From Gluconacetobacter azotocaptans (GTDB lineage Bacteria > Pseudomonadota > Alphaproteobacteria > Acetobacterales > Acetobacteraceae), in the NCBI RefSeq assembly GCF_014174355.1, contig NZ_JABEQF010000003.1, positions 248,001-312,000 on the forward strand: 64,000 nt of DNA. The letters are read 5' to 3'. The notes beneath the pieces are model-generated. The model was not told the DNA's origin. It made no database searches and worked only from the letters and a program-made list of their open reading frames with translations. Position 1 is the stretch's first letter. Each line of letters starts with the position of its first letter. Made by a program: the position numbers and the translations under genes. Below are positions 5,049 through 49,974 of this stretch, in pieces.

Positions 5049-7684
5049 GCCCGGCCCCGACGCCCGGCCTCACGCCCGACGTCGTCACCCAGGACGCCGG
5101 GCCGACGGGCCTGGCGGCGCTGCGGCTGGCGGCGCGGCTGGCGCTGCGCGACCTGCGGGGGGGCATCGGCGGATTCCGGATCGTGCTGCTGTGCCTGGCG
5201 CTGGGGGTGGCGGCGATCGGGGCCGTCGGCGGGTTGCGGGCCATGATCCAGGACGGGATCGCGGACCAGCAGCGCACGCTGCTGGGCGGAGACCTCGCGA
5301 TCGACAGCAGCGACCCGCTGCCCGACGCGCTCTCCCGCTTCGTGACGGCGCATGGGGGGCGGATCGCGCATGTACTGCGCATGCGTTCGATGCTGTATGC
5401 CCCGCACGACGTCGCGGCCGACAGCCAGGCCGGGCCGGGTGGACGGATGCTGGTCGAAATCGAAGCCGTCGACGGGGCCTATCCGCTGGTGGGCGCTGTC
5501 GCCAGCACGCCGTCCCGGCCGCCCGGGCAGGCGCTGTTCGCCGATACCGACCCGCCCGGCGTGCTGGCCCAGCCGATCGTGATCGACCGGCTGGGCCTGA
5601 AACCGGGGGACCTGCTGCGGATCGGCTCGGCCCGGTTCCGCCTGGCGGGGACATTGACGCACAGTCCCGACAATGCCGGCGGCGTGGTGCTGGCGCCGAC
5701 CGTGATGATGGACCGCCGGGCCCTGGACGCCGCCGGCCTGCTGCAGGTCGGCGCGCTGGCCAACCGGTCGCTGCGGATCGCGCTCGACGGGCCGGACATG
5801 GGGCGAAGCGCGCGCGCGGCGGAGCTGGCCGACGCCATCGCCCGGCACTTCCCCGACCAGGGCTGGCGAATCCGGGGCGTGGCCGACGCCGCCCCCGGCC
5901 TGACACGCACGATCGACCAGGTCGCGCGGTTCATGAGCCTGACCGGCCTGACAGCCCTGCTGCTGGGCGGGCTGGGCGTATCGGCGGGGGTCGCCTCATG
6001 GCTGGAGGGGCGGGGGCGCACCATCGCGGTCCTGCGCTGCCTGGGGGCACCGGCCCGGCTGATCTCGTTGACCTTTGGCCTGCAGATCATGGGGCTGTGC
6101 GGCATCGGCATCGCCGCCGGCATGGCGGCCGGCCTGCTGCTGCCGTCGGTGGGGGCCCACGCTCTGTCGGGCCTGCTGCCGGTGGCCCCCACGCGGACGG
6201 TGGCGGTGCGGCCCGTGCTGCTGGCGGGCCTGTTCGGCGCGCTGGTGGCCGCGTTTTCAGCCATCCTGCCGCTGGTTCGGGCGGCTGCGACCCCGCCTGC
6301 GTCCCTGTTCCATGACCAGGGACGCAGGCGGGGGCTGGACCGCGCCGGCCGGATCCGGACGGGGGCCGCGCTGGCGGCCTGTGCCATCCTGCTGGGCCTG
6401 CTGGCCGAGGCGATGACGCCCGGTCACCTGTTCGTCGCCGGGTTCGTCGGCGTGGCGCTGGCGGCGGCCGGCGCCCTGGCACTGGTCGGGCTGGGGCTGC
6501 GCCGCGTCGTCGGCCGGATGGTACGGCACATGGGGACGGAACGTGGTGTGTTGCGCCTGGGGTTGGCGCTGTTCGCCCGCCCCGGCGCGCCGACGGCCCG
6601 CCTGGTCGTGGCACTGGGCGCGGGGCTGGCGGGCATGGCCACGATCGTGCTGGTCGAAGGCGCCATCATGGCGCAGTTGCGCGACCAGTTGCCGCGCCAG
6701 GCGCCGTCCTTCTATTTCGTCGATATCCAGCCCGACGACCTCGACCGGTTCGACCGCGTGGCGCGCGCCCAGCCCTCGGTCAGCGAAATCCGCCAGCTTC
6801 CGTCGATGCGCACGCGCATCGTCGCGATCGACGGGGTGCCGGCCGAACGGGTGCCGGCCACGCCGCAGACCCAGTGGGCCCTGCGCGGCGATCACGGGCT
6901 GACCCTGTCGGCGACACCCCCGCCCGGCACGCAGCTTGCCGCCGGGGCATGGTGGCCGGCCGATTATGACGGGCCGCCGCTGCTGTCGCTCGATTCCGGG
7001 CTGGCCGCCGGATGGGGCGTGAAAATCGGCTCGGTCGTGCGGCTGAACGTCCTGGGCCGGTCGATCGATTTCCGGGTGGCGAACCTGCGCACGGTGGCGT
7101 GGCGGTCGCTGCAGCTGAATTTCGCGTTCGTGGTGTCGCCGGGCCTGCTGTCGCACGCCCCGCACACCTTCGTGGCGACGGTGATGACCTCCGGCCGGCC
7201 GGATCAGGACGCCGCCGTTCTGGCGGCCGTCACCGACGCCCTGCCTGGTGTCACCGGCATCCGGGTCGCCGACGTGCTGGCCGAACTGGGAACGCTGGTG
7301 GGTCGTCTGGCCGTGGCGCTGGCGGCGGCGGCCTCGGTCGTCCTGGCATCGGGCGGCCTGGTGCTGGCGGCGACATTGGCGGCAGGGTGGCGGCAGCGCG
7401 TCGCCACGGCCGCCACCCTGCGGGCGCTGGGGGCTGGCGCGGGGCAGATCCGGGCGATCTGGCTGGTGGAATTCATCGTGCTGGGGCTGGCCGCCGGCCT
7501 GTGCGCGGCGGGGCTGGGCACGCTCATCGCCTGGCTGGTGACGCGCGGCGTCCTGCATATGCCCTGGACCGGCGCATGGACCGACCTGGCCCTGACCCTG
7601 TCGGGCACGCTGGTTGCGATGATCGGCTCGGGGATGCTGTTCTGCCGCTGGGCCCTGCGCGCCGCCGGGCGTAACCGACGTTAG
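5045..7684 (+). CDS. ybbP: FtsX-like ABC transporter permease (YbbP)
   Basis: An 879-residue permease. A first membrane segment lies at about residues 44-66, followed by a periplasmic domain; FtsX-type membrane blocks start near residues 295 (MSLTGLTALLLGGLGV) and 745, each ending in the family's R-LRxLGA pattern. Size and layout match YbbP, the partner of YbbA. The start overlaps the ybbA stop. A perfect 17-bp inverted repeat lies inside the coding sequence at 6291-6333. A modular intergenic repeat follows the stop directly and may terminate transcription. Confidence 0.9.
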   Translation: MSPAPTPGLTPDVVTQDAGPTGLAALRLAARLALRDLRGGIGGFRIVLLCLALGVAAIGAVGGLRAMIQDGIADQQRTLLGGDLAIDSSDPLPDALSRFVTAHGGRIAHVLRMRSMLYAPHDVAADSQAGPGGRMLVEIEAVDGAYPLVGAVASTPSRPPGQALFADTDPPGVLAQPIVIDRLGLKPGDLLRIGSARFRLAGTLTHSPDNAGGVVLAPTVMMDRRALDAAGLLQVGALANRSLRIALDGPDMGRSARAAELADAIARHFPDQGWRIRGVADAAPGLTRTIDQVARFMSLTGLTALLLGGLGVSAGVASWLEGRGRTIAVLRCLGAPARLISLTFGLQIMGLCGIGIAAGMAAGLLLPSVGAHALSGLLPVAPTRTVAVRPVLLAGLFGALVAAFSAILPLVRAAATPPASLFHDQGRRRGLDRAGRIRTGAALAACAILLGLLAEAMTPGHLFVAGFVGVALAAAGALALVGLGLRRVVGRMVRHMGTERGVLRLGLALFARPGAPTARLVVALGAGLAGMATIVLVEGAIMAQLRDQLPRQAPSFYFVDIQPDDLDRFDRVARAQPSVSEIRQLPSMRTRIVAIDGVPAERVPATPQTQWALRGDHGLTLSATPPPGTQLAAGAWWPADYDGPPLLSLDSGLAAGWGVKIGSVVRLNVLGRSIDFRVANLRTVAWRSLQLNFAFVVSPGLLSHAPHTFVATVMTSGRPDQDAAVLAAVTDALPGVTGIRVADVLAELGTLVGRLAVALAAAASVVLASGGLVLAATLAAGWRQRVATAATLRALGAGAGQIRAIWLVEFIVLGLAAGLCAAGLGTLIAWLVTRGVLHMPWTGAWTDLALTLSGTLVAMIGSGMLFCRWALRAAGRNRR
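6291..6333. repeat. Perfect 17-bp inverted repeat inside ybbP
   Basis: The left arm, 6291-6307, reads CCCCGCCTGCGTCCCTG and the right arm, 6317-6333, is its exact complement; the loop is 9 nt. It lies in frame in the permease gene at about residues 416-430, in the cytoplasmic stretch after the first FtsX membrane block. Fourteen of the seventeen pairs are G-C, so the mRNA hairpin would be very stable. Confidence 0.9.
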
Positions 7685-46095: not shown

Positions 46096-48513
46096 ATGAA
46101 ACGCATGCGCAGACATGCGCGCACGCTCTCGGGCGTGTTTGTCCTGTCCCATATTCCCGCCCTGGCCGTTGCCGCGTCCCCCCCGGTCCCTGCTGCCCCG
46201 GCCGCATCGTCCGGGACGGTGCCGGAGGGCACGCCGGTCCGTCGTCCCGCCGGCGAACGGATCGTGGTGACGGGCGACGGCACCTTCGCCACCGCCAACG
46301 GGCGGATCGGCAACCAGCCCGGCGGTGGGCTGATCCGGCCCGAGACCGCCACGCGGTCGGTCAGCACCCTGTCGGCGGACGCCATTGCCCGGCAGGCGCC
46401 GAGCGCCAGCGCGTTCGACATGGTGGCCCTGCTGCCGGGGGCGAACGTCAGTTCCTCCGACCCGCTGGGGTTCGCGGCGCAGACCAACCTCAATGTGCGC
46501 GGCCTGTCCGGCGATTCCATCGGCTATGTGCTGGAAGGGATGCCGCTGAACGACATCGCCTATTATTCCGGCTATCCGGGCCAGTTCGCGGACAACGAGA
46601 ATTATGACGAAATCGCCCTGGCCCAGGGATCGGCCGACCTGGACAGCCCGGTCCTGAATGCCTCCGGCGGGCTGATGTCCCTGCGGTTCCGCGACCCGTC
46701 GCACGACGCCGGCGGGATGGTCGACGCCTCCTACGGATCGTATCACACCGACCGGGCATTCGCCCGGATCGACACCGGCGAGATCGGGCACAGCGGCATC
46801 CGCGCCTTCGTGTCCTATTCCCATGGCGAGACCAGCAACTGGCGCGGCTCGGGACGCGACCGGCGCCAGCATATCGACTTCAAGGCGGTGAAGGAGTGGG
46901 GGGATGGCAACCGCGTGTCGGTGCTGGGCACCTGGAACGACGCAGTGACCAGCAACTACCCCCAGATCGGCATGGCCGACTGGCATGCCTATGGCGTCTC
47001 CGGCCCGAACAATTACGCCAGCACCTACGACCCCGGAAACGCGGCCGCCGGGACGGATTACTGGCGGCTGTATCAGGACCCGTACCGCCTGTTCTATGTC
47101 GCGGCGCCGTCGCGCTTCACGCTGACGCGCGCGCTGCACCTGTCGGTGACGCCCTATGCCCAGTGGGGGTACGGCAACGCCCCCGGCGGCACCGTGCTGT
47201 CCACCACCGGCAACCGGCAGGGAACCGAGGCGCTGCCGTATGCCGTGTCCATTCCCGGCGCGCAGGACGGCATGGCGACGGTGATGGCGGATTATACCCA
47301 ATCCAGCTATCGCACCGGCTTCACCTCGGCGCTGGACTGGCGGCTGGGGCGCCATCGCCTGACGATGGGGTACTGGTACGACTATTCGGACGATACCGAA
47401 ACCCAGCCCTTCTCGCCGCTGCCGAGCAACGGCCATCCGGGGAATATCTGGGCGGATTCGGCCGACGGCACGATCCTGCTGCCCGACGGGCGGCAGCTTC
47501 TGGGCGGCGACAACCACACGATCTCGCAGGTCAGCGCCCTGTTCGTAGGCGACACGATGTCGTTCCTGGACCAGCGACTGACAATCGAGGCCGGGTTCAA
47601 GGAGGTCATGCTGTCGCGCGACGGCACCAACAACCTGCCGGGCCCGCAATACCGGTCGACCATGAACGTGGCCGAACCGCTGCCCAGGCTGGGGGCGCGG
47701 TTCCAGATCAATCCGCAGCATCAGATTTTCGCCAGCGTCAGCACGAATTTTCGTGCCCCGGCGGAATCCTCGCTGTACGACGCGTACGACCCCGCCAGCG
47801 GGGCGCTGGTCAATGCGGCCAACACCAATTTACGCAACGAATATTCGATTTCCGAGGAAATCGGCTACCGCTATGCTGGCCAGCGGGTGATCGGCAGCGT
47901 CACCTTCTTCAATTACAATTTCACCAACCGGCAGATCCAGACGGTGGTGTCGCATAACGGGTCGCTGATCGGATCGACCGTCAACGCCGGCGGCCAGACG
48001 TCGCGTGGCATCGATGTCGAAGCCGGGTTGCGGCCCTGGCATCATTTCAGCCCGTACGTATCCGGCGAGTACCTGCACGCCACCATCGACAACGACATGA
48101 CGATGGACGGCGACGTGCTGCCCACTCAGGGCAAGACGGCCGTGCGCAGCCCGTCGCTGCAGGCCGCGGTCGGCCTGACCTATGACGACGGTACGTTCTT
48201 CGGCATGGCCAGCGTCAAATATGTCGGCCACCAATATGCGACCTTCATGAACGACGAACGCATGCCCGACCATACGACCGGAAACCTGACGCTGGGCTAC
48301 CGGATGTCGTCGATCGGCGTGGCGCGTCATCCGGAATTCCGCCTGAACTTCATCAACATCACCGACAGCCATTATCTGTCCGGCGTCGCCAACCCCACCC
48401 TCAACGCGCGCGACACCACCGGCCGGTACGGCACGACGATCGCGGGCGAGGCCCCGACCTATTACGTCGGCGGCGGCTTTGCGGTGATGCTGACCGGTTC
48501 CAGCGCGTTCTGA
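46096..48513 (+). CDS. TonB-dependent receptor for thiamin or a thiamin precursor
   Basis: An 805-residue outer-membrane receptor with a signal peptide (about residues 1-28), a TonB-box-like RIVVTGDG near residue 55, a plug domain (ASAFDMVALLPGANVSS, LNVRGLSGDSIGYVLEGMPLND) and a beta-barrel ending GGFAVMLTGSSAF. A TPP riboswitch in its leader shows regulation by thiamin pyrophosphate, so uptake of thiamin, its pyrimidine (HMP) or a breakdown product is likely. A ThiY-like binding protein follows after 23 nt. Confidence 0.93.
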   Translation: MKRMRRHARTLSGVFVLSHIPALAVAASPPVPAAPAASSGTVPEGTPVRRPAGERIVVTGDGTFATANGRIGNQPGGGLIRPETATRSVSTLSADAIARQAPSASAFDMVALLPGANVSSSDPLGFAAQTNLNVRGLSGDSIGYVLEGMPLNDIAYYSGYPGQFADNENYDEIALAQGSADLDSPVLNASGGLMSLRFRDPSHDAGGMVDASYGSYHTDRAFARIDTGEIGHSGIRAFVSYSHGETSNWRGSGRDRRQHIDFKAVKEWGDGNRVSVLGTWNDAVTSNYPQIGMADWHAYGVSGPNNYASTYDPGNAAAGTDYWRLYQDPYRLFYVAAPSRFTLTRALHLSVTPYAQWGYGNAPGGTVLSTTGNRQGTEALPYAVSIPGAQDGMATVMADYTQSSYRTGFTSALDWRLGRHRLTMGYWYDYSDDTETQPFSPLPSNGHPGNIWADSADGTILLPDGRQLLGGDNHTISQVSALFVGDTMSFLDQRLTIEAGFKEVMLSRDGTNNLPGPQYRSTMNVAEPLPRLGARFQINPQHQIFASVSTNFRAPAESSLYDAYDPASGALVNAANTNLRNEYSISEEIGYRYAGQRVIGSVTFFNYNFTNRQIQTVVSHNGSLIGSTVNAGGQTSRGIDVEAGLRPWHHFSPYVSGEYLHATIDNDMTMDGDVLPTQGKTAVRSPSLQAAVGLTYDDGTFFGMASVKYVGHQYATFMNDERMPDHTTGNLTLGYRMSSIGVARHPEFRLNFINITDSHYLSGVANPTLNARDTTGRYGTTIAGEAPTYYVGGGFAVMLTGSSAF

Positions 48514-48536
48514 TCCCTCCATCGACCGGAGCCGAC

Positions 48537-49688
48537 ATGATGAAAAAGCTGCTGCGCCTGCTTGGAGCCTGTTTGAAAATGTGGGCTGGGGAGCGAGAGC
48601 GGAACGCAGTGAAGCGCCCGGCGTATGTTTTTGGGCACCGAAGCGGAGCGGCCTTATCGGCCGCCCGCCACGGAGCGCAGAAAACGCGCGTCGGATCACC
48701 GCCGGCGCGCATTTTCAAACAGGCTTTGTCGGGGCTTGCGATCGTGCCAATCCTGGGCACGATCCTGGCCGGGCCGGCGGCACGCGCGGATGCGCCGGAC
48801 AGCGCACCGGAAACCGTGACGGTCATCCTCGACTGGTTTCTCAATGCCGATCACGCGGCCCTGCTGGCGGCGGAGTATGGCGGCGCGTTTCGTCGCCACG
48901 GGCTGCGGGTCAAGCTGATCGCGCCGGCCGACCCCGGATCGCCGGCGCGGCTGGTGGCGGCAGGGCAGGCGGATCTGGCGATTTCCTACCAGACGCAACT
49001 GGGCATGCTGGCGGAGCAGGGCATTCCGTTGCTGCGGGTCGGTACGCTGATCGACACGCCGCTCGATACCCTGATCGCGGCGCCGGGTATCCGTTCGCTG
49101 GCCGACCTGAAGGGGCGGACGATCGGGATCTCGATGGCGGGGGTGGACGACGCCGTGCTGGCGACGATGCTGGGGTCGGTGGGGCTGTCGCTGTCCGACG
49201 TGCGGCAGGTCAACGTGAATTTCCAGCTGGAACAGGCGCTGATGTCGCATTCGGTCGATGCCGTGATCGGCGCGACGCGCACCTACGAGCTGATTGACCT
49301 GCAGCAGAAGGGCGTCTCGCCGGTCGCCTTCTACCCCGAGGAGCACGGGGTGCCCCTGAATGACGAACTGATCTTCGTCGCGGCGCGCGACCATGCGCAC
49401 GATGCGCGGATCGTCCGGTTCATGGCGGCGCTGGAGGAGGGGACGAACACCCTGCTGAACCACCCCGACACAATCCTGGCGCAGGCCATCAAGGAGCATC
49501 CCGAACTGGACACGCCGTTGAATCGCGCGGCCTGGACGGCGATCCTGCCGCGCGTGTGCAAGCAGCCGTCAGTACTGAACGGCCGGCGCTACCGGGCGTT
49601 CATGGCCTTCCTGCGCGAACGGGGTGTGGTGCGACGGGACCTGGCGCTGTCGGCCTACGCCGTCGATCCGGCGGACGGCACGCCGTAG
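48537..49688 (+). CDS. ThiY/NMT1-like periplasmic pyrimidine-precursor binding protein
   Basis: A 383-residue protein. After about residue 90 it matches the THI5/NMT1-SsuA fold: VTVILDWFLNADHAALLAAE, AGQADLAISYQTQLG, LADLKGRTIGIS. ThiY-type proteins bind formylaminopyrimidine or HMP precursors. The N-terminus is odd: MMKKLLRLLGA is separated from ALSGLAIVPILGTILAGPAARA by about 53 residues encoded by a palindromic element; joined together these would be an ordinary signal peptide. No ThiX permease or ThiZ ATPase follows. GGAG lies 6-9 nt before the start. Confidence 0.85.
   Translation: MMKKLLRLLGACLKMWAGERERNAVKRPAYVFGHRSGAALSAARHGAQKTRVGSPPARIFKQALSGLAIVPILGTILAGPAARADAPDSAPETVTVILDWFLNADHAALLAAEYGGAFRRHGLRVKLIAPADPGSPARLVAAGQADLAISYQTQLGMLAEQGIPLLRVGTLIDTPLDTLIAAPGIRSLADLKGRTIGISMAGVDDAVLATMLGSVGLSLSDVRQVNVNFQLEQALMSHSVDAVIGATRTYELIDLQQKGVSPVAFYPEEHGVPLNDELIFVAARDHAHDARIVRFMAALEEGTNTLLNHPDTILAQAIKEHPELDTPLNRAAWTAILPRVCKQPSVLNGRRYRAFMAFLRERGVVRRDLALSAYAVDPADGTP
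48566..48725. mobile_element. MITE-like palindromic element inserted in frame
   Basis: Perfect 16-bp terminal inverted repeats: AGCCTGTTTGAAAATG (48566-48581) and CATTTTCAAACAGGCT (48710-48725). The element is 160 bp with a smaller CGGCC...GGCCG palindrome in the middle. It is open in the frame of the host gene and adds Arg/Ala/Gly-rich residues. TTG flanks both ends (48562-48564 and 48726-48728), a possible but weak target duplication. It has no transposase and no second copy in this window. Confidence 0.75.
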
Positions 49689-49720
49689 GGCGTGGTGTCA
49701 TGGCACGTCGCGTCATGAAT

Positions 49721-49790
49721 GGTTTTCTCGGGGCATTGCCCTCGGGGGTCCGGGGCCTCAGGCCCTGGTAGGGTTCGGTCAACGCCCGAC
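49721..49790. repeat. Modular intergenic hairpin repeat, copy 8 (degraded)
   Basis: TCGGGGCATTGCCCTCGGGGGTC, then GGGGCCTCAGGCCCTGG and a decayed TCGGTCAACGCCCGA. It separates the convergent ThiY-like gene and the 43-residue protein. Confidence 0.7.
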
Positions 49791-49842
49791 CCGTCCTGCC
49801 AGTGTAGGGCAGGGCGCCGGGCCCTGCCGGACGGCGTGGGAG

Positions 49843-49974
49843 TCAGGCGATGCGGTCGGACACGGCGGTGGCGACCACCAGGGCGGCGACGATCGGCAGA
49901 AAGGCAACCAGCGGCAGGAACGACGCGACGCCCATCGAGTTGGCGACAAGGTTACCGATTTCCTGAATAAGCAT
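49843..49974 (-). CDS. Small hydrophobic membrane protein (43 aa)
   Basis: A 43-residue protein on the minus strand: MLIQEIGNLVANSMGVASF, then a hydrophobic helix LPLVAFLPIVAALVVATAV ending SDRIA. TAGGAT sits about 8 nt before the ATG. Codon use is ordinary for the genome. No family is recognised. Its leader contains a long stem-loop at 50076-50128. Small size, one helix and a structured leader resemble type I toxins, but this is a guess. Confidence 0.5.
   Translation of the reverse strand: MLIQEIGNLVANSMGVASFLPLVAFLPIVAALVVATAVSDRIA

Follow-up and report, generated by a model that had tools for sequence, protein, structure and literature searches.

A MITE of 162 bp with IS5/IS1031-type ends has very probably inserted in frame, with duplication of a 3-bp target, into the signal-peptide region of a substrate-binding protein gene of Gluconacetobacter azotocaptans, and the product is likely exported. 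The element was found in a 64,000-nucleotide stretch of this genome (G000:C3:248001-312000), hereafter the window. An earlier note on this DNA had described a 160-bp element at 48566-48725 with perfect 16-bp terminal inverted repeats; this was confirmed, and, judging by the GAGCC...GGCTC termini of other copies, the full palindromic element extends one more base on either side, to 48565-48726. The 16-bp perfect repeats (AGCCTGTTTGAAAATG) lie at 48566-48581 on the plus strand and 48710-48725 on the minus strand. Their arms reach 24 nt at 88% complementarity (48566-48589 and 48702-48725) and were the sole inverted-repeat pair reported within 48400-48900. A scan of the entire window for pairs of at least 20 nt within 300 bp reported one more, at 6291-6333, whose 20-bp arms are 95% complementary and enclose a loop of 3 nt. 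As RNA, the element had a computed folding energy of -96.2 kcal/mol (z = -7.25), which none of 200 shuffles equaled. Rfam gave no match on the element, and the two matches that it returned in the rest of 48000-49800 scored below the gathering threshold; a structured RNA family was dropped as its identity.

The element contains no stop codon in the frame of an ORF at 48537-49688 on the plus strand, where it sits in signal-peptide codons directly after codon 9. The product of this ORF, 383 aa including the insert, was identified by a profile match as an NMT1/THI5-like substrate-binding protein (PF09084; E 7e-52). A TonB-dependent receptor gene on the same strand (46096-48513) ends 23 nt ahead of the start codon. 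Downstream of the host gene, and convergent with it, is a small minus-strand ORF at about 49843-49974 encoding 43 hydrophobic residues (MLIQEIGNLV...SDRIA); sequence resembling it also lies 3' of the ortholog at at least four other loci in the genus (L010, L012, L019, and L020).

Twelve of 14 genus genomes, including that of the strain studied, encode a close ortholog. The 11 others share 83-95% identity with the host gene, and the remaining two genomes had distant matches only. None of the 11 close orthologs in the genus carried the element at the gene start. In the two closest, from G006 and G011, the start codon and the upstream GGAG are conserved, and the site without the element reads MMKKLLRLL-A-GLAIA and MMKKLLRLL-T-GLAIV, respectively, compared with MMKKLLRLL-56 aa-GLAIV here. 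The net gain over these two orthologs is 55 codons, or 165 nt, which fits the 162-bp element together with a duplicated target of 3 bp. The earlier proposal of a repeated palindromic element placed in frame in an otherwise normal signal peptide is thus upheld, since the ends recur in other copies and the orthologs lack the insert. The element is open and lengthens the protein, as had been claimed; the figure of about 53 added residues did not hold, the net gain being 55. The ortholog comparison suggested at that time gave 11 of 11 close orthologs lacking the added residues; neither repeat-free orthologs with the same residues nor ends confined to this single site were found. The locus is a clean case in which a MITE adds 55 residues to a signal peptide, with two close sites free of the element.

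The search for the 16-bp ends, likewise proposed in the earlier note, showed that they recur in the genome. The genome itself (4.13 Mb in 57 contigs) gave 41 DNA matches to the element, some of them fragments of one copy, and a second copy used as query matched in all 14 genus genomes. With the same query, 22 of 150 sampled Acetobacteraceae genomes matched at E <=1e-10; three of these 22 belong to the same genus, and many of the other matches were partial. An exact 25-base end pattern occurred in 14 stretches of the named collection, of which G. johannae LMG 21312 contains 12 and G. diazotrophicus PA1 5 the other 2. PLSDB plasmids gave no match at E 1e-5, and a plasmid-borne family was dropped from consideration. 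The MITE family is a large group of Gluconacetobacter.

For a closer description of the family, 146 loci were taken, some of which were fetched twice or were common to species. Ends could be defined in 139, of which 94 passed quality filtering and 87 were left after de-duplication; the 52 loci omitted from this set of 87, the window copy being one, either had weaker ends or repeated a site already present. Copy length was 161-164 bp in 69 of the 87. The element itself ends in GAGCCTGTTTGAAAA..., and the family ends are of the GAGCCTGTTTGAAAATG type. Compared with a 13-copy consensus that includes it, the window copy has 12 differences, within a range of 3 to 23, and its last base is altered. 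Several variant arrangements were also seen. In G000, short copies of 55-117 bp (L057, L061, L049, L052, and L044 among others) retain both ends, as if internally deleted. Subfamilies vary in the outer end, TGTTTGAAAA or TGACCGGAAA, and the two ends of one copy agree with each other (L007, L050, L066, and others), a pattern suggestive of pairing with different partner transposases. Tandem neighbors of two or three copies occur at G007:C7:92015-92500 and G005:C5:137525-137853.

Identical 3-bp flanks were present in 36 of the 87 copies, with TNA in 28 of the 36 and other triplets in 8, although both the end finder and the quality filter credit TNA and thus favor these TNA counts. When copies were scored by their ends alone, 26 of 72 had identical flanks, most commonly TCA (12) and TGA (7); the strict GAG end rule behind this count shifts copies reading GAGAGCC by two bases. 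The family is short, multi-copy, and transposase-less, with IS-like terminal repeats and, at the family level, TNA duplication, as in MITEs of the IS5/IS1031 type.

Full-length relatives were found elsewhere in the genus. Genome G003 carries 883-bp insertion sequences with GAGCCTGTTTGGAAAGTC at both ends; two were read, with flanks TAA/TAA and TAA/TTA, and the transposase of one scored 234 bits against the IS5 model NF033580, for which the cut-off is 110. Relatives of 883 and 897 bp in G009 are flanked by TTA and TAA duplications. The end of the MITE (GAGCCTGTTTGAAAA) is near-identical to that of the G003 883-bp insertion sequence (GAGCCTGTTTGGAAA), and exact GAGCCTGTTTGGAAA ends are present on short paired copies in G001, G002, G009, and G010. 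In its own genome, no full-length insertion sequence with these ends was found. Two matches to DUF4096 transposases were examined there: one has other ends, and the other lies near a contig start, its best end match having 4 mismatches in 14. Because the genome is a draft in 57 contigs, a partner insertion sequence may be missing from it. From its ends, the TNA duplications of other copies, and the full-length IS5 relatives in the genus, the element is best read as an IS5/IS1031-type MITE.

The event that we propose is as follows. The non-autonomous MITE would have been mobilized in trans by an IS5-family transposase of the IS1031 subgroup and would have inserted directly after codon 9, duplicating a 3-bp TNA target, presumably after the split from G006, the closest sampled relative. 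The flanks of the window copy, TTG at 48562-48564 and TGT at 48727-48729, are not identical, and we take them to be the left and right copies of that duplication after later decay; the net 165 nt equals 162 + 3. The unmatched triplets and the last base, which departs from the consensus, make this copy look old. Since 162 + 3 is divisible by three and the family consensus is open in the frame concerned, 55 codons would have been gained without a frameshift. The consensus has three open frames, namely +1, +2 (the frame used here), and -2, so no mutation was needed to open the used frame.

Whether the lengthened protein still leaves the cytoplasm was judged from the host gene and its signal peptide. 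Outside the insert, comparison with G006 over 293 codons gave dN 0.016 and dS 0.152. With G011 as the outgroup, 20 synonymous and 3 nonsynonymous codon changes fell on the branch of the strain studied. By these substitution patterns the host gene is under purifying selection, and the product is therefore probably still exported; part of the selection signal may predate the insertion. On balance we favor a protein that starts at the ancestral ATG, carries the insert in a basic n-region of about 64 residues that precedes a still intact hydrophobic core, and is exported. The 56-residue stretch contains 11 K/R and 2 D/E. Beyond it, the hydrophobic core has a score of 2.5 over 12 residues (the two closest orthologs: 2.6 and 2.5), and a putative cleavage region of the AxA type follows. 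A possible though rather unlikely alternative is that export is broken or that translation restarts at an internal codon, either TTG or GTG just past the element or ATG inside it. An n-region of roughly 64 residues is unusual, and a strong RNA hairpin starts 28 nt past the first base of the start codon, both as this alternative would have it; however, the GGAG and the ancestral start are retained, the core is about as hydrophobic as in the two closest orthologs, and the 20:3 ratio of codon changes counts against it. The lengthened signal peptide, in a gene that looks selected, offers a natural test of the limit on n-region length.

The distribution of the other copies raised another reading, namely that the family is targeted to stop codons, the TNA within CTNAG being the stop itself, and that the window copy is a rare misplacement that made a retained long signal peptide. 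In 52 of the 87 copies, the 3-bp target coincides exactly with the stop of a neighboring called gene (for example, L004, L005, L048, and L066). The coincidence was also seen in 39 of 68 flank clusters, in 42 of the 87 copies when strong gene calls only were used, and in 30 of 72 copies under the strict GAG rule. By comparison, stops make up only 80 of the 835 noncoding TNA sites that the flanks contain. The copies also show a preference for CTNAG, with both outer bases present in 39 of 87, and CTGAG at gene ends is often a stop. By motif class, noncoding TNA sites that are stops numbered 15 of 53, 59 of 317, and 40 of 566 in the window plus 14 loci. When the null was matched for motif and confined to the 60 nt behind stops, 52 coincidences were observed versus 35 expected, of 64; these are counts with no p-value, from copies that are not fully independent, and the null sample still includes MITE copies. 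The stop-codon bias is largely explained by the CTNAG preference together with survival behind genes, and we regard dedicated targeting as doubtful. If true, it would mean that each insertion duplicates the stop, adds a 3' mRNA hairpin, and leaves the protein unchanged. The bias is testable and is possibly worth more than the insertion itself.

Far less probable is that the element belongs to a gene-invading class like the palindromic elements of Rickettsia, adapted to specify a peptide that proteins tolerate and to multiply within genes. The earlier note had drawn this likeness, and part of it stands: the element is palindromic and lies in a frame that can be translated through it. The insertion at this site is in frame. 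There are 39 copies exactly 162 bp long; 29 of them are open in the used frame, and the remaining frames are open in 1, 18, 28, 23, and 20. Mononucleotide shuffles of the window element left one frame open in 19%, so base composition alone does not account for the openness of the family. However, several frames of the element are open rather than a single one, and membership in a gene-invading class failed on location. Only one of the 139 loci with defined ends, the window copy itself, lies within a called gene, by a test whose codon model was trained on 26 window ORFs and in which some loci are the same site twice or are shared by species. None of 20 loci picked for long open frames was within a called gene; these were drawn from a peptide search, and 17 of them lie outside the 146. 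That search gave 619 matches in the 14 genomes, so the loci examined are a minority. A flank-only, frame-independent test placed none of the 139 in genes; it recovered 262 of 300 positive controls set 150 nt or more from gene ends and is blind very near a gene end, as at the window copy. An earlier in-gene test with lax edges, which counted antisense frames, had given 29 candidates among the 139; it was superseded by the stricter test. A separate 300-bp codon scoring was too coarse for frame assignment. Coding targets are abundant: in the window plus 14 loci, 3372 of 4308 TNA sites and 69 of 122 CTNAG sites are in called coding sequence or overlap it. Because most such sites are coding, the rarity of copies inside genes points to loss of harmful insertions rather than to a want of targets. 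A gene-invading class of the Rickettsia type was rejected on the in-gene counts of 1 of 139 and 0 of 20. An assembly artefact, with the repeat misplaced in a draft of 57 contigs, is barely credible: family copies do lie at contig ends in G006, but the window copy is deep inside a 406-kb contig, with its own 12 differences from the consensus and its altered last base.

The insertion of an IS5/IS1031-type MITE into this signal peptide is a clear but essentially ordinary event. The available parts of the literature found on Gluconacetobacter or Acetobacteraceae MITEs and on Acetobacter IS1031 (PMC4686929, PMC3733652, and PMC9818992) do not describe the family, which is no proof that a description is absent. 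The available text of the genome papers on G. diazotrophicus (PMC3035290 and PMC2765452) mentions insertion sequences and transposases and does not mention the MITE family.

Several known systems invite comparison. The IS1031 subgroup of IS5 is described, in the available text, as having TNA targets and a 3-bp repeat, and the end of one member is GAACCTGT... (PMC12016507). The element resembles the IS5 family and this subgroup in its GAGCCTGTTTG-type ends, its 3-bp TNA duplications, and the presence in the genus of 883-897 bp partners with IS5 transposases. It differs from full-length IS5/IS1031 elements in having no transposase gene, and the kinship rests on ends and duplications rather than on the core. 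Another class of bacterial palindromes, REP/BIME, goes with a REP-associated tyrosine transposase (RAYT). By the available description, these are palindromes of 20-40 bp tagged at one end (PMC3733652); the size of the element and its TNA duplications point elsewhere.

That MITE-like repeats can fuse in frame with genes is already known, according to the accessible portions of the sources, from the RPEs (PMC10969869) and the RU elements (PMC2759123). RPEs are palindromic, about 150 bp long, and translatable in frame within a gene, and nearly half of those first reported were in genes (PMC10969869, in the text available). Compared by description rather than by sequence, our element is like them in being palindromic, of similar length, and translatable in frame inside a gene, and unlike them in that 1 of 139 loci lies in a called gene, so that a recurrent in-gene location was not found. 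RU elements are likewise fused in frame with genes, and RU-2 lies within the predicted signal peptide of YPO1552 (PMC2759123, as far as its available text goes). Likened by description, the element shares with the enterobacterial RU-1 and RU-2 that small MITE-like repeats have been joined to reading frames; it differs in occurring in other bacteria and in that an RU forms part of a predicted signal peptide, whereas here an existing n-region has been lengthened.
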